Shown here: in pieces, positions 49,167-62,623 of the stretch | Position numbering within the stretch: the first letter of the stretch is position 1 | Layout: each line of letters begins with the position of its first letter | From: Streptomyces sp. BR123 | Lineage (GTDB): Bacteria; Actinomycetota; Actinomycetes; Streptomycetales; Streptomycetaceae | NCBI RefSeq assembly: GCF_013401435.1 | Contig: NZ_JACBGN010000004.1 | Location: forward strand, 1-64,000 | Direction: 5' to 3' | DNA: 64,000 nt | Position numbers and translations under genes: made by a program | Notes under the pieces: model-generated | The model's input: the letters and a program-made list of their open reading frames with translations, nothing else | The model's database searches: none | What the model was told of the DNA's origin: nothing

Positions 49167-50708
49167 TCATGGTCCTGGCTTCGAGGTGAACGCGGACGCT
49201 CCCCTGCCGCCTTCCGGTGTACTTCTGCGGTGTCGCAGCGCCCACAACGCGACGGGAACTCCCGCCCCGACCAGCGCTGACGCCAAACACAGACCGGCCT
49301 GGTAGCCGGAGAGAAAGGCATCCGAGTCCTCGGCCCCGGCTGCGGCTGCGGCATGTTTCACGAACGACATGACGGCGCCCACCAGACCGATCCCGACGAC
49401 TCCGGACGCCTCGCGGACGGCGCTGAACAGTCCGGCCGCGATTCCGGAAAGGTGATCGGGCGAGGACTCCAGAGCACGGGTGGTCAGCGGAACGGCCAGC
49501 GCAGAGCCGAAGCCGATGGCCGAAAGGCCGGGCAGAATATGGGCGAGACTGCCTCCGGAGCTGCCCAGTGCGACCATGAGCAACCCCAGGCCGACCAGGA
49601 GCAGACCCGCAGCGGAGATCCGGCCGTCTCCCCAGCGGCGCGCCATGCGCGCGATGAAGGGGGTGGTGATGATCAGGAAAAAGGCCACGGGAATGAATGC
49701 CAGCCCGGCTGGGGTCGGGGCGAGGCCCAGGCCGTTCTGCAGAAACTGGGACGTCAAGAAGAAGACTCCGCTCACGCTCAGGCCCCACAGCAGTTGAATG
49801 ATGATTCCGCCGGTGAAAGGGCGTTGACGGAAGAGGGGCCGCAGCACGGTGTTCCGGCGCGATGTCAGTTCGTAGGAAAGGCCGACGGCCGATGCGGCGA
49901 TGATGCCCGCTGACGTGGCGAGGGGGATGCCGCCGAAACCCTTTTCAGGCCCTTCGATCAGGCAGTAGGCGAGGGCCGCCAGCAAGCAGCAGGCCAATGC
50001 CACGACGCGGAGCGACAGCGTGGCCGAGGTCGAGGCCGAGGGCGTGGACGCGGCGCGGGAGGAGGGCCCGGGCCGGGGGACGAGGAAGCCGACGAGGATA
50101 CTCGTGCAGCCGAGTGGAGTGTTCATGGCGAACACGGACTGCCAGCCCAGGTGCTGTGTCATGACACCGGACACCACGGGGCCGCAGGCCAGCGCGGAGG
50201 CCAACACGGCGGTGATGGCGTTGAATCCCGCATTGCGCGCACGAGGCGGCAGGTCGTGGGAAAGGACCGCCAGTGAGGCCGGCAGGATCAGCGCCGCGCC
50301 CGCTCCCTGCAGCCCCCGGCAGGCGATCAGCGCCGTCCCCGAGGGTGCCGCACTGCACCCGACCGATGCGACGGTGAAGAGGGCGACGCCGAGCCACAGC
50401 GTCGCACGCCGCCCGACGGTGTCGGCCAGATGCCCGCCCAGCAGCAGAAGACTGGCGAGGGCGAGGGGATAAATGGCCGCAACCCATTTGAGGTCTGCCT
50501 CGCGCAATGCGAGTTGGGCCTGGATCTGAGGCAGGGCCACATTGACGACGGTGTTGTCCAGGGCCGTCATGAAGGACGGCAGCAGTACGGCCACGAGGAT
50601 TGCGAGGACACGCAGTCGGCTCACGATACCTGCCTTGAGCGGCGTGGGCGGTGGTAAGGCGCCGCCACGTTCTGCGCGCCCTTTCTGCGTACTCTGCCCC
50701 GCGGGCAT
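49167..50708 (-). CDS. MFS exporter, DHA2-like (14 TM)
   Basis: 513 residues from ATG 50708 (GGGAG upstream); GTG 50624, right before the first helix, is an alternative giving 485 residues. Motif C-type and DHA2 features: LPSFMTALDNTVVNVALPQI, LLLLGGHLADTVGRRATLWL, GLQGAGAALILPASLAVLSH. Fourteen hydrophobic segments are recognisable. Divergent from the FAAL-PKS operon and separated only by an IS relic, so export of the PKS product is the most attractive role; general drug efflux is equally compatible with the sequence. Confidence 0.85.
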   Translation of the reverse strand: MPAGQSTQKGRAERGGALPPPTPLKAGIVSRLRVLAILVAVLLPSFMTALDNTVVNVALPQIQAQLALREADLKWVAAIYPLALASLLLLGGHLADTVGRRATLWLGVALFTVASVGCSAAPSGTALIACRGLQGAGAALILPASLAVLSHDLPPRARNAGFNAITAVLASALACGPVVSGVMTQHLGWQSVFAMNTPLGCTSILVGFLVPRPGPSSRAASTPSASTSATLSLRVVALACCLLAALAYCLIEGPEKGFGGIPLATSAGIIAASAVGLSYELTSRRNTVLRPLFRQRPFTGGIIIQLLWGLSVSGVFFLTSQFLQNGLGLAPTPAGLAFIPVAFFLIITTPFIARMARRWGDGRISAAGLLLVGLGLLMVALGSSGGSLAHILPGLSAIGFGSALAVPLTTRALESSPDHLSGIAAGLFSAVREASGVVGIGLVGAVMSFVKHAAAAAGAEDSDAFLSGYQAGLCLASALVGAGVPVALWALRHRRSTPEGGRGASAFTSKPGP

Positions 50709-50774
50709 GCAGGCGCGACTCCCGTTTTGAGGTTCCCCCGCCGGGGGAGATGCCGAATGGCTGGTCGGGTGGGT

Positions 50775-51010
50775 CGGCGTGATGTCAGGTTCGCCTGTTC
50801 GGTGGCTGCCTGGTTGGCGTATTGCTTCTGCTCGAACCCGATCGGGCCGGGGGAGGGGGCCGCTTTCTGGATACGGCGTGGGTCGTGGAAGCCGTCGGCG
50901 TACTCGAAGAGCGCCGGAACGGGCTCTCCGCCAGGGCATTGTCATACGAGTCTACGACCGGGCCCGTGGATGCCTGGGCTCCGGCTCTGACCAGGCGTGT
51001 TGTGATCCGG
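50775..51010 (-). pseudogene. IS3-family transposase (OrfB) relic
   Basis: One frame gives LVRAGAQASTGPVVDSYDNA with LAE, the typical IS3 DDE region. A second continues VPALFEYADGFHDPRRIQKA and GFEQKQYANQAATEQANL, matching the C-terminal end of IS3 transposases with internal losses. Frames change at about 50925. No terminal inverted repeats were identified. The element lies between the MFS promoter and the FAAL start. Confidence 0.7.
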
Positions 51011-51224
51011 CGGGGAAAACGCCGCTCGCGTTCCGTACGCCGACCGGGCGGGGCTCTCGGCGTGGCGCTGCCTCTCGGTACGCCGCCGTGTTTGGCTGAT
51101 CGCTCACCACTGCAACTATCCGTTGGGAAGCGGTGATGGGCAGCGACGGCTGCCATCGATTCGCCTGACAGGCTGATGGCCGAGGCGTCCCGTTGCCTGT
51201 CGAGAACGAAGGTTCGGTGAGTTA

Positions 51225-53006
51225 GTGCTGAAAGCCATGAAAGACACGATCAGTCATCATCTCGCCCGGGCCGCGGCGCAAAACCCCGATGAAAAAGCGT
51301 TTACTCTGGTGGACTTCAGCACCGATCGTGACGGAGCCTACAGCTGTCTGACGTGGCGCCAGCTGGAGCAGCGGGTACGTACCCTCGCGGCGGTCCTGCG
51401 TCACGGCGGCGCGGCCGGCGAGCGGGTGGCGGTCATGGGTCCGCAGAACCTCGACTACGTCGTCGGCTTCCTCGCGGCCACGTGCGCCGGTGCGATCGCC
51501 GTTCCCCTTTTCCCCCCGGCCCTGCCGGGCCATGCGGAGAAACTGGCCGCCGCGCTCGCCGACGCCGACCCGGTGCTCGCCCTCACCAGCCCCGACTCGC
51601 TGCAGACCGCGGAGAAGTTCTGCGCCAACCAGGACGGCCTCCGCGTGCGTGTCGCCACCGAGGAGGACCTGCTTTCGGGTTGGGCGGCACAGGCCGAGCC
51701 GACGGACGGTGAGCCCTCTCATCCGCGCCCCGAGGACTGCGCCTACCTGCAGTACACCTCGGGTTCCACCCGCATGCCGTCCGGCGTGGAGATCTCCCAC
51801 GCCAACGTCTGCGCCAACGCACGCCAGGCGCTGAAGGCTTACGACATCCGAGCCGGGCGCAACTGCACCGTCGGCTGGCTTCCGCTGTACCACGACATGG
51901 GACTCGTGCTGGCGATCGTGCTTCCTGTCGTCGGCCGCGTCCACTCCGTGCTCATGGATCCGCTGTCCTTCGTACAACAGCCCGTCCGGTGGCTGCGGCT
52001 GCTCAGCGAATACCCGGGTGCGCTCACCGCCGCCCCCAACTTCGCGTACGACTACTGTGCGCGCCGCGTCACCGACGAGGAGCGCGCGACGCTGTCGCTG
52101 GGATCGGTCGCCGCCATGGTCAACGGCAGTGAACCCATCGCCGAGAAGACGCTCCAGCGGTTCCAGCAGGCCTTCGCCCCGGTCGGCGCGCTCCCCACGG
52201 CGATGCGCCCGTCCTACGGGCTGGCCGAGGCGACGGTGTTCGTCTCCGCCTCACCTGCCGGTGTGGAACCGACCGTCACCTCCTTCGACCGTGACGCGCT
52301 GGCGGCCGGCACCGCCCGGCCCGCCGAGGGCACCGACGGACGGGCCGTGACCCGCCTGGTCGGCTGCGGGCGGCCCACCGACCAGGAGGCCGCCATCGTC
52401 GACCCGGTCGGCCTCGTCCGGCTGGAGGACGGGAGCGTGGGCGAGATCTGGCTGCGCGGCCCCAACGTCGGACGCGGCTACTGGGGACGCCCGGAACAGA
52501 GCGAGGCCACCTTCCGCGCCACCCTCCGCGGCGACAACCCGGACGAGGGGACGCATCACTGGTTGCGCACGGGAGACCTCGGCCTGTGGCACGACGAACA
52601 CCTCTACATCACCGGTCGCATGAAGGACCTCGTGATCATCGACGGGACCAACCACTATCCGCAGGACATCGAGCACACCGTCGAGAACGCCCACCCGGCG
52701 ATCCGCCGCCATCACACCGCGGCGTTCTCCGTCCCCGGTGATGACGGAGAACGCCTGGTCGTCGTCGCCGAGCACGCCCGTGACCTCGCGGAGCCCCACA
52801 GGGTCCAGGACGAGGCGACACGCGCCGTACGCGTGGCGGTGTCCGCCGGTCACGCCATCGCGATGCACGACTTCGTCCTCGCCCAGCCCGGCACCGTACC
52901 CCACACCACCAGCGGGAAGGTCGCCCGCAGCGCCTGCCGCGAGCACTACCTCAGGGGTGCGTGGACCTCCGACCCCCACGTACAGAGGGAGACCGACGAC
53001 GTATGA
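51225..53006 (+). CDS. Fatty-acyl-AMP ligase (FAAL)
   Basis: 593 residues from GTG 51225; ATG 51237 (MKDTISHHL) is an alternative and neither has a strong ribosome site. Adenylate-forming fold: P-loop YTSGSTRMPSGVEISH with the FAAL-style TR in place of TGxPK, then GWLPLYHDMGLVLAIVLPVV, ALTAAPNFAYDYCARRV, MRPSYGLAEATVFVS, WLRTGDLGLWHDEHLYITGR and KDLVIIDGTNHYPQDIEHTV. FAALs activate fatty acids as acyl-AMP and hand them to a carrier protein, not to CoA. ATGA overlap with the PKS, whose first domain is a carrier. Confidence 0.93.
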   Translation: MLKAMKDTISHHLARAAAQNPDEKAFTLVDFSTDRDGAYSCLTWRQLEQRVRTLAAVLRHGGAAGERVAVMGPQNLDYVVGFLAATCAGAIAVPLFPPALPGHAEKLAAALADADPVLALTSPDSLQTAEKFCANQDGLRVRVATEEDLLSGWAAQAEPTDGEPSHPRPEDCAYLQYTSGSTRMPSGVEISHANVCANARQALKAYDIRAGRNCTVGWLPLYHDMGLVLAIVLPVVGRVHSVLMDPLSFVQQPVRWLRLLSEYPGALTAAPNFAYDYCARRVTDEERATLSLGSVAAMVNGSEPIAEKTLQRFQQAFAPVGALPTAMRPSYGLAEATVFVSASPAGVEPTVTSFDRDALAAGTARPAEGTDGRAVTRLVGCGRPTDQEAAIVDPVGLVRLEDGSVGEIWLRGPNVGRGYWGRPEQSEATFRATLRGDNPDEGTHHWLRTGDLGLWHDEHLYITGRMKDLVIIDGTNHYPQDIEHTVENAHPAIRRHHTAAFSVPGDDGERLVVVAEHARDLAEPHRVQDEATRAVRVAVSAGHAIAMHDFVLAQPGTVPHTTSGKVARSACREHYLRGAWTSDPHVQRETDDV

Positions 53007-56000
53007 ACCAGCCAGGCGGACACCAGGAGTCGGTCGAGGACAACGCCCAGGCCACCACCTCCACCACGGATGGCCGCTCCGGATCGGGCGTTGCAGAACT
53101 GCGAAACGTACTGGTGCAGTTGGTCTCGGACATCAGCGGTATCGCGCCGGAACAACTCGACCACGGCCGGCCTCTGGCGGAGTACGGCCTCACCTCCCGA
53201 GACGCCGTCGGACTGACCGGCGAACTGGAGAAGCTGCTCGACCGATCACTGTCCGCCACGCTGCTGTGGGAGCACCCCACCATCGAACAACTCGTCGCCA
53301 CCCTGACGGAGGCCGACCGGGCCGCTGCCGCGCAGCCGGACCGGCAGCCCCGTGCCACCGACGAGGCAGCCTCCACCGCCAGCGCCGACGACGGTGCGAT
53401 CGCCATCGTCGGCATCGGCTGCCGTCTGCCCGGCAACGTACACGGGCCGGACGCGTTCTGGCAGCAGCTCACGACGGGAACGGACGCGGTCGGCCAGGTG
53501 CCCGAAGGCCGCTGGCCGAACTTCGCCGGCACAGCGCCCGACGTCACGGCCCTGATGGAAGCCACCACCCGGTGGGGCGCCTTTCTCGACGACATCGAGG
53601 GATTCGACGCCAAGTTCTTCGGCATCACACCCCACGAGGCCGAAGTCATGGATCCCCAGCAACGGCTGGTGCTCGAAGTCATCTGCGAGGCCCTGGACGA
53701 CGCGGGGGTACCCGCCCACGCCCTGCAGGCCACCCCCACCGGCGTCTTCGTCGGCCTGAGCGCCCTCGAGTACGGGCATCTGACCACCTCGGACCCCGCG
53801 CGACTGACCCCGTGGACCAGCACCGGATCCGCCGGCAGCATCGTCGCCAACCGCGTGTCCTACCTGCTCGACCTCCGCGGCCCCAGCATCACCACCGACA
53901 CGGCCTGTTCGTCGTCGCTCGTGGCCGTGCACCTGGCCTGCCGCAGCCTGCGCAGCCGGGAGTGCGACACGGCACTGGCCGCAGGAGTCAACCTGCTCCT
54001 GTCCCCAGCGGTCACGGCCTCGCTCGAACAGGCCGGCCTGCTGGCCGCGGACGGCAGGTGCAAACCCTTCGACGCCGCGGCGGACGGAATCACCCGCGGT
54101 GAGGGATGCGGCGTCGTCGTGCTCAAGCGGCTCGCCGACGCCCGGCGCGACGGCGACCGGGTCCTCGCCGTCATCAGGGGCACCGCCGTGAACCAGGACG
54201 GCCGGTCGGCGGGCCTCATGGCACCCAACCCGGCAGCGCAGGAAGCGCTGCTGCGCGACGCCCTGCGCGACGCACGCATCGACGCGGCCGACGTCGACTA
54301 CGTCGAGGCGCACGGCACGGGCACCCTGCTGGGGGACCCCATCGAGGCGACCGCCCTCGGAGCGGTCGTCGGACATGGCAGGCATCCCGACCGGCCCCTG
54401 CTGATCGGATCCGTCAAGAGCAATATGGGCCACCTCGAAGGCGCGGCCGGCATCATCGGCCTGATCAAGACCGTGCTGGCCCTGCACCACGGCCATATCC
54501 CGGTCAGCCTGCACTTCCACAGCCCCAACCCCCACATCGACTTCGCCGAGCTGGGCCTGCGCGTGGTCACCGAACCGACAGCATGGCCCACGCCGGGGGA
54601 CCGCCCGGGGCGCGCCGGTGTGTCCGCCTTCGGCTTCGGCGGCACGAACGCCCACGCCGTACTCGAGCAGGCGCCGCCGACCGCTGCGCATCCCGCGCAG
54701 ACTGCGCGGGCCGACGACGAAGAGGCCGACCACCCGCACATCCTGGTGGTGTCGGCGCGTTCCTCGGACAGGCTCGCCGACGTGGCCGCGAGCCTGTCGC
54801 GATGGGTGGCCTCCGCCGACGCACCCGCCCTCACCGACATCGCCCACACGCTCGCCTCGCACCGCCGTGGCCCGTCCTGCGCCGCCGTCATCGCGCGGAC
54901 CCGCTCCGAGATGGCTGCCGGGCTGGCCGCGCTGGCCCGGGGCGAGACGGTTCCGGGCGTGGTCGCCGCGTGCACCGACGCGCGGGGGGCGCAGTCGTTC
55001 ACAGCGCGCCGACCGGTCTTCGTCTTCTCCGGTTACGGCTCACAGTGGGAGGGCATGGGGCGGCGCCTGCTGGCCGACGACGCTCTCTTCGCCGCCCAGG
55101 TGTCCGCGCTCGACACGAACTTCCTCGCGGAGACCGGCTCCTCACTGACCGACATGCTCATGTCCGATGCCGCCCGGACCGTGGACCGGATCCAGCCGCT
55201 GATCTTCGGACTCCAGCTGGCCCTGGCACGTACCATGCAGGGCTACGGCGTGGAACCCGCCGCCGTCATCGGCCACTCGATGGGCGAGGTCACAGCCGCC
55301 GTGGTCGCCGGCGCTCTCGACGAACGCGACGGACTGCGCGTCATCGCCCGCCGATCGGCCTACCTCGCCGTCCTCGAAGCCGAGAACGCCGGCGCGATGG
55401 CCGCGGTGGAGCTTCCGGTGCAGTCCCGTACGGCCATCCTCGGCCGCTTTCCCGGTGTCGAGGTCGCCGTCCACTCCTCGCCCCAACGCTGCACGGTGAC
55501 CGGCCCGGCCCAAGCGGTGCGCGACCTGGTGGACCAGCTGACCGAGCAGGGTTGGCTCGCCCGACTGCTCGAGACCGGCGCTGCCGCACACTCGGTCCTG
55601 GTCGACCCCGTCCTGACGCCCCTGCGCGAAGACCTCGTCGACGTGCACCCGCACACGCCCACCACACCCTGGTACAGCACGGTCCTCGATGATCCCCGCG
55701 CAGGCACGGCAGCCGATACGGGCTACTGGTGCGCCAACGTCCGCCGCCCGGTGCGCCTGCAGCAGGCGGTGACGGCGGCAGCGGAGGACGGCCACACCCT
55801 GTTCCTGGAGATCTCGCCCCACCCCATCGTCCTCGTCCCGCTCGCGGAGAGCCTCGACGCCACCCCGGCGGGGGACCAGGCGCTGGTCGTCCCGACCCTG
55901 CACAAGAACACCGACGACACCGTTCAGCTACGGGCCGCACTGGCCAGACTGCACTTCGCCGGCGTCACGCTGGACCCCGGGCTGTGGCCCGCCGGTGCGC

Positions 56001-59000
56001 GCACCGCACTGCCCACACCCCCGTGGCGGCACGAACGTTTCTGGTTCCCCTGCCCCGCCCGATCGACCGAGGCCGGCGCCCATCCTCTGCTGGGGGGCCG
56101 CACCGACGACCCGAGGACCGGCGCCGTGCTGTGGCGGGGAGACGTCGGCACGCGCCGGCACGGCACCCGCAGCACGGTCCACGGCAGAGCGGTGCTGACC
56201 CTCGTCGAGGCGGCGGAGCTGATGATCGAAGCCGCCCTGGACCTGTGGGCCCGGGAGGGCGTCACCCACCTCGGCATCGAGGACCTGCAGATCCATGAGT
56301 GGCTCGCCATCTCCGGCAGCACCCCCCTGACCGCGGTGTGGGAACCGGCCTCCGGCACCCACGGAACCATCACCCTCCACGCCCGCGGCCCCGGCGCCAC
56401 GTGGCGCTGCTACGCCTCGGCCCGCGTCACCCGCGACCCGGAACCCCAGGGCGGGCACGACCTCGAGTCGGAACCGGCGTCGGCCCTCGTCCGGCACTTC
56501 GTCCCCGAGGCCCCCCGGCCCCCCCACCGGTCGTCCTACGCACACGTTCTGACCGCCGTGCTGTGCCCGCAGAGCGCTGCGGACACACCACCGGGCAGCG
56601 ACCGCGCCGTCGAGGCCGCCGCACACACCGTCCCGGTCGGCGTACGGTCCCTGCACATCAGGGGGCAGGGCGTCCTCGACCCCGGCTATGACATCCGCTG
56701 CACGCCCGTCGACGGCGCCGGCCCGGCGGAGGCAGGCATCGACCAGTGGCACGTCTCCGCCCGGGGCGCCACGAGCGAGATCGTCGCCCGGTTCGTCCAG
56801 ATGCGGCCCGTCGAGCGGTGCGAAGTCCCCCGGTCCCTGGAGACGTTCACCTACGACATCCAGTGGGAGAAGTCCACCGTTCCCCTGCCGGCGCGGCATC
56901 TGCGACGTGCCCTGCTCGTCAGCGACGAACCGGACGCCGCGGGCGGTGCCACGGCCTCGCTCGTGGCGGCCCTGGAAGCCGAGGGCGTCGACGTCACGCC
57001 GACCGACGCCCGGGGCGAGACCTGCGACGCCGTACTCGACGCGTGGCTGGAGGCTCCGCAGGACGGCCCGAGCGCCGTAGTCCTGTTGTTCCAGCATCAC
57101 GAACGCGACGACGACATGCGGCCACTGCACAGGGCGGCCCGGTTGGCGCGCCGCCTGGCCGGCACCCCGCGCCGGGAACCCCCGCGTCTGTGGATGGCCA
57201 CCGTGCTGGCGCAGGCGACGGGGGCCGGGGAACCCGGGACGCCGTATCTCGCCTGCCTGCGTGGACTCGTCCGGGTCCTGGCGCTCGAACACCCTCATCT
57301 GCGGGCCTCGCTGGTGGACATCGACAAACAGCCCGGCGCGCTCGACGACCTCGCCCGCGAACTCCTCGCGGGCGGCGACGCGGACGAGATCGCCTGGAGG
57401 GCCGGCACACGCCTCACCGCCCATCTCGCCCGGGCCGACCTCAGCGCACAGCGCAACGACAAGGCGGCCTTCACCCGTCCCGACGGCGCGTACATCATCA
57501 CCGGGGGCCTGACCGGACTGGGCCTGGCGACAGCGGGCCGGCTCGCCGAGCAGGGGGCCGGACGCGTCGTCCTCAACGGACGCCGTGCCCCGGGACCCGA
57601 GGCCCGGGCCGCCCTGGCCGAGCTGCAGGACCGGGGAACCTCCGTCGTCCTGGTCCAGGGGGACATCGCGGACCCGGAGGTGGCCGCGAACCTGGTGCGT
57701 GCCGCCCTCGCCGAGGGGCACACCCTGCGCGGCGTCGCGCACTGCGCCGGCGTCCTGCACGACCGTGTGATCACCGACCTCGAACCGGCGGACATCGACA
57801 CGGTGCTGCGGCCGAAGGCCGTCGGAGCCCGCAACCTCGAGGCGGTCATCGCCGACCACGATCTGGACTGGTGGGTGATCTACAGCTCCGCCGCGGCACT
57901 TCTCGGCTCACCCGGACAGTCCGCCTACGCAGCCGCCAACGCCTGGCTCGACGCCGTGGCCCTCCGCCGCAGAGCGAGCGGCCTGCCCGCGATCTCCATC
58001 GCCTGGGGCCCGTGGGCGAACGTCGGCATGGTGGCCGGGAACCCGGTGTCGGCCCTGGAGCCCATCCAGACGAGCGAGGGACTGGACGTCCTTCAGGCAC
58101 TCGCCACACTCAATCGCGCGCACGTGGGCGTCGTCCACCTCGACACGGAACGCGTGCTGGAGGCGTACCCCGGCCTGTCCGCCATCCCCTTCTTCTCCGA
58201 CGTCCTCGGGGAAGGCCCACCCGGTGCCGACGACTGGGTGGGCCCCCACGGCATCGCGGATCTCGGCAGCTCCGCCGCGGACACGGTGTACGCACGCCTG
58301 GTCAGAAGAACGGCGGCCATCATGGGGTTCTCGGCCGCCGAACTGAGCGAGACGATCCCGCTGACCGAGCTGGGCCTGGACTCCCTGGTGGCGGTGCGCA
58401 TCCGCAACGCGTTCCGCCAGGACTTCGGCATCGACCTGCCGGCTCCCCGGCTGCTGCGTGGTGCCAGCCTGCGTGAACTCGGCCGCGCGGTGCTCGAACA
58501 ACTCGGTCTGGAGGCGACGGAGCCGACGGCCTCGAAGGCGCCCTACGACACACGGCAGGCCGATCCCTCCACACCCCCGCTGCCGAGCTTCCTCGGCCCC
58601 AGGGACGCCGCGGAGCGGCTGGTTGCGAGCGCCTGGGCCGAAGTCCTGCAACAAGCGCCCAAGGACATCCGGGAGGACTTCACCACCGCCGGCGGGGACC
58701 AGGCCGCCGCCGCGGCCGTGGCGGACGCCATTCGCCGGCGCCTCGGCGGCGACACCGAGTTGAGCCTGACGGCCGACGCCGTTCTCGCCCAGCGCACCGT
58801 CGCCGCCGTCGCCGAACTGATCCGTCCGGTCGTCAACCGAACCGGCCGGTCGGCAATCACCACCCTGCGCCCCCCGCTCGCCGGGTCGGAACGGCCCCCG
58901 CTGTTCACCTTCCATCCCGCCGGCGGCCCGACCTCGGTCTACCTGCCCCTGATCGGGCTGTTGCCGGCCGAACAGCCTGTGTACGGCCTGGAACGCGTCG

Positions 59001-59671
59001 ACGAGTTGAGCACCATGGAGGACAAGGCGGCCCACTACCGCACACTCATCCGTGACCTCCAGCCGGAGGGGCCCTACCACCTGCTCGGCTGGTCCTTCGG
59101 AGGGTGTCTCGCCTACGAAGTGGCTCGTCAACTGAGGCAAGAAGGACAGGGCGTCGGGTTCCTCGGACTGATCGACACCATCCTGCCCCCCGCCTTGCCG
59201 CAATCGGAATCACCGGAGTTCCTGCTCGAGCGTTTCGGCCGTTTCGCCGAATACATCGAGAAGACGTACGGGCACCGCCTCGACCTGCCCTACGAAGAGC
59301 TGGCGGCCACCCCCGACGACCAGCAGATCGACGTGGTCATGCGTCTGGTCGCCGACGCGGGCCTCGACATGAGCCCAGGGATCATGGAGCACCAAAGGAC
59401 CTCGTACGTCGATGCCCGCGTCGGCGAACGGTATGTCCCCCGTCCCCAGGAGGGCCACGTGGTCCTCTACCGGGCCAGGCAACCGCAGCAGCTCACCGCC
59501 GCTCTGGACCCGCGCTACCTCCGGCAGGACGCCGACCTCGGGTGGGCGCCCCTGTGCCAGACCCTGGAGATCGTCCCCGTCGAGGGCGACCACCTTTCCG
59601 TCATCGATCCTCCCCACGTGCAGACCATTGCGCAGCACGTCGCCCGCGCCATGGGGTGGCCGGCCCGATGA
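53003..59671 (+). CDS. Type I polyketide synthase, ACP-KS-AT-DH*-KR-ACP-carrier*-TE
   Basis: 2222 residues, coupled to the FAAL. Domains: loading ACP (about 30-110, Ser65 in [11 protein letters not shown]); KS (about 132-556; Cys302 in TDTACSSSL, His437 in EAHGTGT, His477 in SNMGHLEG); AT (about 670-960; Ser759 in GHSMGE, AAAH at 860-863); DH-like (from His1027), whose HxxxGxxxxP motif is SxxxGxxxxT at 1057-1066, so inactive; KR (about 1495-1675; TGGLTGLG, Ser1629, Tyr1642), apparently active; ACP2 (Ser1794 in LGLDSLVAV); a second carrier-like domain with GGDQ, Gln1900 in place of Ser; TE (about 1966-2222; Ser2031 in GWSFGG, Asp2058, His2197). One extension of a FAAL-loaded fatty acid, ketoreduction and release as a 3-hydroxy acid or ester is predicted. 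The layout recalls mycobacterial FadD32-Pks13 with an added KR. Confidence 0.93.
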
Positions 59672-59681
59672 TCGGTGCACC

Positions 59682-59718
59682 GCGCCTGTTCCGTGGGGCC
59701 CACCTGCGGAACAGGCGC
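59682..59718 (+). terminator. Hairpin after the PKS
   Basis: Perfect 12-bp arms, GCGCCTGTTCCG (59682-59693) and CGGAACAGGCGC (59707-59718), 11 bases past the PKS stop. Confidence 0.85.
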
Positions 59719-60661
59719 AACCGCTCCTCACCCGTCCGACACCGGGCCTGCGAGTCGGTGACGCCGAGCCCGGTACGGGCCGCAGCGCACGCATCGTCAT
59801 CACAGTGAGTGACGGGCGTTTGCGGGGAAAGGCCGATCCGCAGGCCTCGCGCTTTCGTGGAGCGGCCCGTCGAACAGGTGGTCAGCAAAGCAGGAAATAC
59901 CTCTGGCCAGCGAGAATGAAGGCCGAGATCCCGTTCCCGCTCCCGTCGGAGGCACTTTTGCTGCTCCGATCGAGTGACACGGCGACCTGAAGCTTGTGGC
60001 ATATGCCGGTCCTTGCGTTACTGGACGTATTCCAACCACTGGGCAGCCCGTACCGCTCGGGAAACGTGGTACCGGGGTTGACTGTCCCCTCCACACGTGG
60101 GGAGGGTCGCAGGTTCGCCGGGATCACGATGGGCATCCCGAGGGGGGTTGGATCGCCAGTCGGTGCCGCTTGCGCGGTGCCGACTGGCCTGTTTTCTGCC
60201 GACCTGGCAGAGCGAACAGTTCCGGGTTCGGTGGAGAATCAAACGCGTGCAAGGGTTCGCGTCACCGCATGACCTTCCTCCTGCTCGCTTGAGCTCCCTC
60301 GACGTGCCGTGCGCCGAACCCGGTGCGTTTCGGAGATCGATGGCGTACGCCGGTGGCATTCAAGCGCCCGCTGTGGCGCGCTCAGCCAACCAAGTGCCTT
60401 CATTGACGCCTTGTCGGCGATATGGCCCTGTGGGTTACTTGAATCAGCGAACCGGTGGGCCGCCCATCCCATGGCCGGGGATCACGATAGAGGGCGGTGT
60501 CTGCCGGTTCTTCCTTTGTGCTCCTACGAGGGAACTCCGTTGACCCGGCGGCACGGTTCAGCCGTCCGTCCTCCCGTGAGGGCCTTCCGCGAAGGTCGGC
60601 CCGGCGGCCCCCCGGTTCCGCTGTGTCCTCTGGCCCCGTCATGTCAGCGAGGAGTCTCTCC
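59719..60661. other. Unassigned stretch, lower GC, no convincing gene
   Basis: About 940 bases. Several frames of 75-150 codons are open on both strands, but none has a family motif, a good start site or the third-base GC bias of the neighbours. Two hairpins are visible: CCCTCC/GGAGGG near 60086-60110 and the terminator-like one at 60155-60195. It may be decayed sequence or encode an RNA. Confidence 0.4.
60155..60195 (+). terminator. Hairpin with T-tract, no upstream gene
   Basis: Arms GCCAGTCGG (60155-60163) and CCGACTGGC (60180-60188) enclose a further CCGC/GCGG stem and are followed by CTGTTTT. A T-run after a stem is rare in this genome type. There is no confident gene upstream on the plus strand, so a small RNA ending here is conceivable. 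Confidence 0.45.
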
Positions 60662-61408
60662 ATGCCCATCTCTCCGAACCAGGGATCCACCGGCGGCGGC
60701 ACACTGGTGACCATCACCGGTGCGAACCTGTCCGGCACCACCGACGTCACCTTCGGCACCAAGCCCGCCACCAACGTCACCAACGTCTCGCCGACGCAGG
60801 TCACGGCCGTGTCGCCCTCGGGCACCGGCAGCGTCGGGGTGACCGTGACCACCGCGGGTGGCACGAGCAACCCGATCCCGTTCTTCTACGTCGGAGCCCC
60901 GTTCAAGTCCACGCTCCAGCCGACCTCCGGCGCCCTCGCGGGCGGCAACACGGTCACGCTCAACGGTGTCGGGCTGGCGACCGCCACCGGTGTGGCCTTC
61001 GGCGCCAACACCGCCACGCCGACGGTCCTCTCCGACACCCAGCTGACCGTCACCGTGCCGGCGGGCGCAGCGGCGGGCCCCGTCGGAGTGACCGTGACCA
61101 CCGCGGGCGGGACGCACAACGGTCTGTCCTACACCTACGTGGACGTCCCCACGGTGACCGCTGTCACGCCGACCTCCGGACCGACGTCCGGCGGTACCGG
61201 TGTGACCATCACCGGCACCAACCTCGGCACCACCGAGTCGGTCACCTTCGACGGCAACCCGGCACCGTTCTCCGTGGTGAACTCCACCACGGTCTCGGCG
61301 GTGACCCCGCCCGGGGCCGCCGGCGCAGTCGACGTGGTGGTGACCAACCCGGCGGGCTCCGTCACGGCCACCGACGCGTTCACCTACGTCGCGGCTCCCG
61401 GCATCTGA
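60662..61408 (+). CDS. IPT/TIG repeat protein, three repeats
   Basis: 248 residues from ATG 60662 (MPISPNQGSTGGG), with GAGGAG at 60649-60654 and 7-base spacing; upstream in-frame starts lack this. Three IPT/TIG immunoglobulin-like repeats of about 82 residues, each starting SPNQGSTGGGTLVTITG, QPTSGALAGGNTVTLNG or TPTSGPTSGGTGVTITG. The composition is Thr/Gly/Ala/Val-rich with no Cys. There is no signal peptide or membrane helix, unlike most extracellular TIG proteins. Function unknown; adhesion or structural binding is the family's usual role. Confidence 0.85.
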   Translation: MPISPNQGSTGGGTLVTITGANLSGTTDVTFGTKPATNVTNVSPTQVTAVSPSGTGSVGVTVTTAGGTSNPIPFFYVGAPFKSTLQPTSGALAGGNTVTLNGVGLATATGVAFGANTATPTVLSDTQLTVTVPAGAAAGPVGVTVTTAGGTHNGLSYTYVDVPTVTAVTPTSGPTSGGTGVTITGTNLGTTESVTFDGNPAPFSVVNSTTVSAVTPPGAAGAVDVVVTNPAGSVTATDAFTYVAAPGI

Positions 61409-61419
61409 CCCTCGACCAT

Positions 61420-61449
61420 GCTGCCGCCCGGTCTTCACCGGGCGGCAGC
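61420..61449 (+). terminator. Hairpin between the two IPT/TIG genes
   Basis: Perfect 12-bp arms, GCTGCCGCCCGG (61420-61431) and CCGGGCGGCAGC (61438-61449), with a 6-base loop, 12 bases past the first stop. The two genes are thus probably separate units. Confidence 0.85.
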
Positions 61450-61609
61450 CCGAGCGGTACTTCCCGCGCCTGTCCGCCCTCCGGCCACATGATCCCCGGT
61501 GGGCGGACACCCTCCATCCGCCGAAGTCCCAGATGCGGCGGTTCCCCCGGGGCCGGACCGGCATCCGCGTCAACCCGGGGTTCGTCCAGGCTGCCGTAGG
61601 AGCATCCTC

Positions 61610-62623
61610 ATGCCGCCCACGATCAACACCATCAATCCCTCGCAAGGTCCCACCACCGGTGGTACCACCGTCACCCTCGCCGGCACCGGAATGACGGGGT
61701 CCACCGCCGTACGGTTCGGCAGCACCAACGCCACCTCCTTCACCGTCAACTCGGCCACCCAGATCACGGCGGTGAGCCCGCCCCACGCCGCGGGTACGGT
61801 GGCGGTGACCGTCGTCCATCCGACCGGCACCAGCAACTCGGTGACGTTCGTGTATGCAGCGGCGCAGGTGCCGGTGGTCACGGACATCGCGCCCAACAAC
61901 GGTCCGACGTCGGGCGGCACCAGTGTCACCCTCACGGGGACGGGGTTCACCGGGGCCACGGCGGTGAGGTTCGCCGGGGTCCCGGCGACGTCGTTCACGG
62001 TGAACTCGGCGACCCAGATCACCGCCGTGACACCTGCCGGAAGTGCCGGAGCCGCCGCCGTGACCGTCACGACACCGAATGGCACCAGCGCCCCGGGCGC
62101 CTTCTTCTACGTAGCGCCTCCCGTCCTGAACAGTGCCGGCCCCGCCCAGGGCCCGACGGCCGGAGGCGCGGTGGTCACACTGACCGGGAGCAACCTGCTC
62201 AATGCCACTACCGTACGGTTCGGCAGCACCGACGCCGCCTCTTTCACCGTGGTGTCGGCGACGCAGATCACGGCCACCGCTCCGCCGGGGACGGGCAGTT
62301 CACCGATCACGGTGATCACCTCGGGCGGCACGAGCAACCCCGTCGCCTTCACCTATGTCGCCGCACCCGCCCTGACAGCACTGGTGCCCGCTGCCGGTCC
62401 GACGTCCGCGGGCACCGTGGTGACCCTCACCGGCACGAACCTGGCCACCGCCAAGGCCGTCACCTTCGGGGGTACGGCCGTCTCGTTCACCGTCGTGTCG
62501 GACACACAGATCACGGGGGTCGCACCCGCGGGACCTGCAGGTCCGGTCACTGTGACCGTCACCACAGCGGGTGGCACCAGCCCCGGGCTGACCTACACCC
62601 GGAAGGCCCCGCCCGGCATCTGA
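61610..62623 (+). CDS. IPT/TIG repeat protein, four repeats
   Basis: 337 residues, AGGAG at 61598-61602 before ATG 61610. Four repeats of about 82 residues starting NPSQGPTTGGTTVTLAG, APNNGPTSGGTSVTLTG, PAQGPTAGGAVVTLTG and PAAGPTSAGTVVTLTG. Repeats 1 and 2 share the block TSFTVNSATQITAV at both protein and DNA level (about 61737-61772 and 61989-62024), so a duplication made them. Like its neighbour it has no signal peptide. Both end in the same APPGI/PPGI residues, which may be a functional C-terminus. Confidence 0.85.
   Translation: MPPTINTINPSQGPTTGGTTVTLAGTGMTGSTAVRFGSTNATSFTVNSATQITAVSPPHAAGTVAVTVVHPTGTSNSVTFVYAAAQVPVVTDIAPNNGPTSGGTSVTLTGTGFTGATAVRFAGVPATSFTVNSATQITAVTPAGSAGAAAVTVTTPNGTSAPGAFFYVAPPVLNSAGPAQGPTAGGAVVTLTGSNLLNATTVRFGSTDAASFTVVSATQITATAPPGTGSSPITVITSGGTSNPVAFTYVAAPALTALVPAAGPTSAGTVVTLTGTNLATAKAVTFGGTAVSFTVVSDTQITGVAPAGPAGPVTVTVTTAGGTSPGLTYTRKAPPGI

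Follow-up and report, generated by a model that had tools for sequence, protein, structure and literature searches.

A candidate cluster for an exported glucolipid that resembles the mycolic acid condensation system

Introduction

In the mycolic acid condensation system, which comprises Pks13, FadD32, AccD4, and the Ag85/PS1 transferases, the gene of the fatty acyl-AMP ligase (FAAL) lies beside that of the PKS, and a PF00756 transferase is encoded in the neighborhood. MAS, another PKS with bearing on this study, is iterative and fully reducing and has no thioesterase (TE). The domain order of Pks13 is ACP1–KS–AT–ACP2–ACP3–TE. The third ACP is described as lacking the serine and as having an unknown function, and the TE as attaching the Pks13 product to trehalose (PMC9900942). 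Among known products, glucolipsin is described as having two glucose units and iso-branched chains with 2-methyl and 3-hydroxy groups, joined C6′-to-C1, and Nocardia is mentioned as a further producer genus (PMC4365757). S. purpurogeniscleroticus and Nocardia vaccinii are reported to produce glucolipsin.

Here, we describe a FAAL–PKS–exporter locus in a 64,000-nucleotide stretch of DNA (the window), which is positions 1–64,000 of contig C444 in an assembly of 8.16 Mb; among the relatives found, the nearest named ones are Streptomyces. The locus shares with the mycolic acid condensation loci the FAAL gene beside the PKS gene and a PF00756 gene nearby, and its PKS has the Pks13 domain order, including the Ser-less third carrier and a homologous TE. 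Unlike Pks13, the PKS carries a ketoreductase (KR) and a dead DH between AT and ACP2. Unlike the Pks13 loci, the window locus includes glucosyltransferase (GT) and MFS genes and gave no AccD4 match; crotonyl-CoA carboxylase/reductase (CCR) is present in relatives and lost in the window. The MFS, FAAL, and PKS genes are probably the central part of a cluster of five genes that follows the logic of mycolic acid condensation and whose product would be an exported glucolipid.

Gene organization

The MFS, FAAL, and PKS frames are all open, without internal stops, where the original prediction had placed them. The FAAL gene (51225–53006, plus strand) is directly upstream of the PKS gene (53003–59671, plus strand). 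The predicted ATGA overlap between the FAAL stop and the PKS start was seen in the sequence, with the PKS beginning at the ATG at 53003 and not at the GTG at 52961. The best match of the FAAL among solved structures was 5d6j (454 bits), whose entry name is just "Acyl-CoA synthase" and which we take to be a FadD32. The FadD32 entries scored 435 and 431 bits, followed by FadD23 (384 bits) and FadD28 (330 bits). Entries named CoA ligase scored 93 bits at most, and the protein is thus nearer to FAALs than to CoA ligases.

The exporter gene (49167–50945, minus strand) encodes an MFS protein (PF07690, 148 bits). Its true start is probably downstream of 50945, because the similarity to relatives begins at residues 67–114 in 10 of 11 cases (at residue 4 in L021). 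A divergent DHA2 exporter had been predicted; the MFS assignment and the orientation opposite to the FAAL gene hold, but the score with the DHA2/EmrB model (186 bits) is below the cut-off of 230. Codon 97 of the open frame 49167–50945 is TTA and is possibly upstream of the true start. Upstream of 49 kb lie ArsR-like, FAD-monooxygenase-like, and other genes; they had no conserved match in the loci of relatives, with the exception of one P450 match of 36% in L018, and were not taken as part of the locus.

A 500-amino acid PKS query was run against 150 genomes of the genus, and 26 matched. These were the window genome itself, four genomes with full-length matches, one in which the match is cut by a contig end (G008), and 20 with partial matches (E = 1e-10 to 1e-19), which were taken as other PKSs. 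A second collection gave eight loci, in Streptomyces and Streptacidiphilus. The 14 loci found through the PKS, the window included, are termed the window family. FAAL is encoded directly 5′ of the PKS in all 14, and an MFS gene is near the PKS in 12 and divergent to FAAL in 11. Within the stretches fetched, no MFS gene was found in two of these 14 loci or in two of the five found through the esterase (see below).

Domain composition of the PKS

Domain models and motifs describe a single-module PKS of 2222 amino acids with the order ACP1–KS–AT–DH(dead)–ψKR–KR–ACP2–ACPx–TE, all encoded on the plus strand. The N-terminal ACP (53090–53317) is of the GLTSRD type, as had been predicted, and is expected to be the carrier loaded by the FAAL. 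The KS (53390–54682) has its catalytic Cys, His, and His. The AT (55010–55972) has the motif GHSMGE, and its closest solved structure is the AT of MAS, with a printed motif of VASH (241 bits, compared with 163 bits for the Pks13 AT). The DH (56060–56407) is an N-terminal remnant in which the His of HxxxG is replaced, and its score of 24.3 bits is under the Pfam threshold of 27. The structural half of the ketoreductase, ψKR (56870–57442), comes next, and the region of DH and ψKR shows weak homology to MAS (65 bits). The KR (57470–58027; 194.6 bits) retains the catalytic Ser and Tyr, with LHD at the position of the LDD motif. ACP2 (58265–58507; GLDSL) is followed by the carrier-like ACPx (58586–58837) and the TE (58865–59662), in which Ser, Asp, and His are kept. 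Among the catalytic motifs examined, only the DH His and the serine of the third carrier are missing, in agreement with the complete KR and dead DH of the original prediction. A single round of extension is expected of this module, unlike the iterative MAS. In a structure prediction, the Ser-less carrier and the DH/linker region had mean pLDDT values of 52 and 45, respectively, too poor for use.

Comparison with Pks13

Pfam found three carrier stretches in the PKS, and the third, ACPx, has GGDQ in place of the serine. By alignment, it is the counterpart of Pks13 ACP3, and the serine is absent in nine of nine aligned sequences. Carrier and TE, aligned together, scored 244 bits with Pks13, compared with 112 bits for the best NRPS chain; the Pks13-like TE is thereby confirmed, and an NRPS-type TE was rejected. 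Because trehalose is the acceptor for the Pks13 TE, release as a sugar ester is to be expected here. The score with the NCBIfam Pks13 model NF040607 is 1340 bits, below the equivalog cut-off of 2100, and the KS and TE of mycolata Pks13 each form their own branch (support 100).

Esterase and glucosyltransferase

Immediately beyond the window end, the contig carries two further genes in the orientation of the PKS. A search with the esterase of a relative located a PF00756 esterase gene at contig positions 64017–65024; nothing else in the 8.2 Mb genome matched at E = 0.001. Its best solved matches were PS1 of C. glutamicum (140 bits), Cmt1 (93 bits), and Ag85A (81 bits), with a ferulic acid esterase next (78 bits); PS1 and Cmt1 are corynebacterial mycoloyltransferases. 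As judged by eye, the start of the protein is signal peptide-like, and this mycoloyltransferase-like enzyme may be secreted. The GT gene follows at 65032–66279, and its product is closest to sterol 3-β-glucosyltransferase (196 bits; next GtfB, 103 bits). In the window locus, PKS and esterase are separated by ~4.2 kb with TIG-repeat genes, a split that counts against the proposed cluster. Two TIG/IPT-repeat proteins are encoded at window positions 60497–62623, between the CCR remnant described below and the esterase; genes like them occur close to loci L019 and L013. The two ORFs of the insert that were scanned with Pfam encode TIG-repeat proteins, which gives no support to a transposon. In L022 (16139–18010), a gene with a methyltransferase domain, possibly for sugar modification, lies between esterase and GT; it has homologues at this position in L012 and L023, and all three loci contain CCR.

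The esterase is nearby in 12 and the GT in 11 of the 14 loci of the window family. Neither was seen in L016, which ends at a contig edge, or in L024, and no GT was seen in L015, where the PKS is split over two frames. In genome G110, both genes are ~7 kb past the locus as first fetched. When the esterase was used as the only query against 392 genomes of the genus, 15 matched at E = 1e-70. They comprise five known genomes, two duplicates (L120 and L121, taken as the same assemblies as L022 and L023 and not counted as new), five new genomes (esterases of 62–81%), and three with distant esterases (44–46%). In all five new genomes, FAAL, PKS, and GT genes accompany the esterase, and the PKS has the full domain order including ACPx. 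In the three genomes with distant esterases, FAAL, PKS, or GT matches above 100 bits were found in none within 19.5 kb. The most likely acceptor is glucose, given the linkage of the cluster to a lipid glucosyltransferase and a putatively secreted mycoloyltransferase-like enzyme.

The predicted FadD32–Pks13-like logic with a ketoreductase is well supported by the homology of carrier and TE, the Ser-less carrier, the adjacency of FAAL, and the mycoloyltransferase-like neighbor. The same likeness raises an alternative, in which a longer alkylmalonyl unit is used and the putatively secreted mycoloyltransferase-like enzyme puts the acyl group on trehalose, another envelope sugar, or a protein, giving a mycolate-like envelope lipid. 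The function set is the same as in FadD32–Pks13–AccD4–mycoloyltransferase loci, where all nine fetched control loci of family f4, with Pks13 architecture, had FAAL, AccD, and esterase matches; the residue in the AT motif is small, and AccD4-like carboxylases accompany the PKS in other related loci. In the window locus, however, there is no AccD4 match (AccD-like matches above 80 bits were found in neither the window nor L086), CCR is just a remnant, and the linked GT, together with an MFS protein in place of MmpL3-type export, points to a secreted glucolipid. We regard an envelope lipid as rather unlikely.

AT specificity and loss of CCR

HAFH is described as the mark of malonyl-specific and YASH of methylmalonyl-specific ATs (PMC6164871). 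The window AT has AAAH, without Phe at the HAFH position, and its extender is probably not malonyl. With such an AT, a 2-methyl (or 2-alkyl) 3-hydroxy acid is to be expected. A single extension ending in a 3-hydroxy product, as originally predicted, agrees with the dead DH and complete KR, but a plain 3-hydroxy fatty acid is unlikely when the extender is probably not malonyl. FAAL, single module, active KR, and inactive DH would all accommodate malonyl extension to a plain 3-hydroxy acid or ester exported by the MFS protein; esterase and GT would then be chance neighbors or have other roles. Against this stand the AT without HAFH, with MAS as its nearest solved relative, the tight linkage of esterase and GT, and the intact CCR genes near the PKS in seven of the 14 window-family loci, which imply branched extenders there. 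This explanation seems to us quite unlikely.

The window retains the 3′-terminal 29 codons of a CCR gene (59703–59789, minus strand), 31 bp past the PKS stop on the opposite strand, with 79% identity to the intact gene of L019 (E = 7e-10 in a small search). The L019 protein scored 551 bits with TIGR01751 (cut-off 379). Traces also occur in L017, as broken pieces with the middle missing, and in L021 (~70 bp), and next to nothing is left in L018 and L020. A second, full-length CCR gene (55%) is found on contig C128 of the window genome, away from the locus; it could supply ethylmalonyl-CoA, which runs counter to the methylmalonyl reading.

In the first set of loci, from which L016 was left out, an intact CCR nearby is accompanied by an xAGH motif in 14 of 14 (L011, L013, L014, L015, L019, L022, L023, and L063–L069). 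The loci without intact CCR have AAAH (window), GAVH (L017 and L018), GAAH (L020), and GATH (L021); L024 is an exception, with GAGH and no intact CCR in the stretch examined. The association of CCR presence with the AT motif in this set (Fisher p = 0.0004) is not an independent test, because the five CCR-less loci with non-G motifs are one clade. Among the loci found through the esterase, L123 and L124 have CCR and GAGH, L119 has GAAH and no CCR match, L122 has AAAH and no CCR, and L125, a second exception, has AAGH and no CCR within the stretch examined. A tree built from joined KS, KR, and TE sequences places the window, L017, L018, L020, L021, and L119 in one clade (support 100/99), where A, V, or T precedes the motif His, compared with G in the 14 CCR-bearing loci of the first set. 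L122 falls within a clade with L014, L123, and L124 (support 100/100), all three with CCR and G, and its AT change is therefore separate from that of the main CCR-less clade. From these two separate changes, and with the two exceptions, we infer that CCR loss went with a narrowed AT pocket and a switch to methylmalonyl.

Decay of CCR in the window and L017, and the TIG-repeat genes between PKS and esterase, could also be read as signs of a decaying, non-functional locus. This is very improbable, as the five remaining genes are open, the dN/dS values against L017 are 0.19–0.37 for the four genes tested (PKS, FAAL, esterase, and GT), and the CCR-less clade persists across six genomes in the tree.

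Proposed pathway

We propose, with moderate confidence, that a FAAL-loaded fatty acid undergoes one α-branched extension, reduction, glucosylation, and sugar ester formation to give an exported glucolipid. The enzymes for a 2-methyl-3-hydroxy acyl group, its glucosylation, and a sugar ester are present as judged by homology, and the choice of methylmalonyl is deduced from the AT. For the substrates, the order of glycosylation and esterification, the dimerization, and the export, we infer the following course. The FAAL would adenylate a fatty acid and load it onto ACP1, and the AT would place one α-branched malonyl unit, most likely methylmalonyl in the window strain, on ACP2. After a single condensation by the KS, reduction by the KR would yield a 2-methyl-3-hydroxyacyl-ACP2, in which the alcohol should remain because the DH is dead. 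The glucosyltransferase may then add glucose to the 3-hydroxy group, and the Pks13-like TE, the putatively secreted mycoloyltransferase-like enzyme, or both may form an ester between the acyl group and a hydroxyl of a sugar. Two units joined head to tail at C6 of glucose would form a glucolipsin-type macrodiolide, and the MFS pump would export this product or the monomer.

The predicted chemistry (iso-branched acyl chain, 2-methyl and 3-hydroxy groups, glucose, C6 ester, and dimer) is that described for glucolipsins A and B (PMC4365757), which are grouped with the macrodiolides cycloviracin and fattiviracin. By calculation, a C16 acid extended with methylmalonyl and reduced by the KR is C19H38O3, and its glucoside, dimerized through two ester bonds, is C50H92O14 ([M+H]+ 917.656, [M+Na]+ 939.638); with ethylmalonyl or malonyl in place of methylmalonyl, the calculated values are 945.687 and 889.625. 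A dereplication table lists glucolipsin A as C50H92O14 with a mass of 917.6546 (PMC7918646). The match is consistent but not diagnostic, because C15 with ethylmalonyl and C17 with malonyl share this formula by calculation. Searches of open-access literature brought up neither a gene cluster for glucolipsin nor a description of the window cluster, and the link between the two is thus a prediction.

A narrower form of the same proposal has no macrodiolide as its product, but a 3-O-glucosyl 2-methyl-3-hydroxy acid, or its ester, in linear or monomeric form. All of the tailoring genes fit it, and the sequence gives no proof of dimerization; on the other hand, TE and esterase are both candidates for ester formation, and there would be just one bond for them to form. 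Within the glucolipid proposal, we hold this form possible, with the lesser share of the probability. As to the dimeric glucolipid, one genus of mycolata, which may be Nocardia, had a PKS match in one of 148 genomes, outside the window family; the match is to a module within a multi-module PKS, where ACP1, ACPx, and TE gave no match. The best GT matches in this presumed Nocardia-like genus were 37–43%, in 12 of 150 genomes. The lack of a window-family PKS there may count against a pathway shared with the Nocardia producer.

Related loci across the class

A class-wide search of 345 genomes with the carrier and TE as the query found matches in 120. All 19 listed places with at least 173 bits outside family f4 and the window's own family were fetched (L055–L069 and L071–L074); L070, L084, and L085, with TE matches of 118–136 bits and a different domain order, were dropped from the counts. 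All 15 loci L055–L069 have a KR and the same domain order as the window PKS, apart from single domains below the model threshold (ACP1 in L059, DH in L055 and L067, and ACPx in seven). The PKS of L071–L074 is ACP–KS–AT–ACP–TE. Across the 19 loci, the esterase was found in 17, FAAL in 13, CCR in seven, and an AccD-like carboxylase in eight. Six loci of family f17 (L064–L069) combine a KR-type PKS and CCR, with no FAAL match above 80 bits in 19 kb. A conserved protein of 447–475 amino acids is encoded near the PKS in L066–L068, the L066 copy being without a Pfam match.

In a wider sense, mycolic-type condensation, with FAAL, a Pks13-like PKS, a carboxylated extender, and a secreted mycoloyltransferase, could be a more general actinobacterial module that was given a KR and a GT for exported glucolipid macrodiolides, with an AT pocket that co-evolves with the gain and loss of CCR, and the window strain would have switched from a longer alkyl to a methyl branch. 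We put this forward tentatively, as somewhat less than an even prospect. If the glucolipid proposal is right, a gene cluster and testable masses would be at hand for the glucolipsin-type glucolipids, which were reported in 1999 and whose genes were not found described; the logic of mycolic acid would extend outside the mycolata; and the intact, half-decayed, remnant, and absent CCR genes would constitute a natural series for an extender change in an AT.

L071–L074, which come from genomes of the same genus, look like a mycolic acid condensation set in non-mycolata. The genes there occur in the order AccD-like carboxylase, FAAL, short PKS, and PF00756-like esterase. L072 also has a gene of the cutinase family, with homologues in L073 and L074 by clustering.
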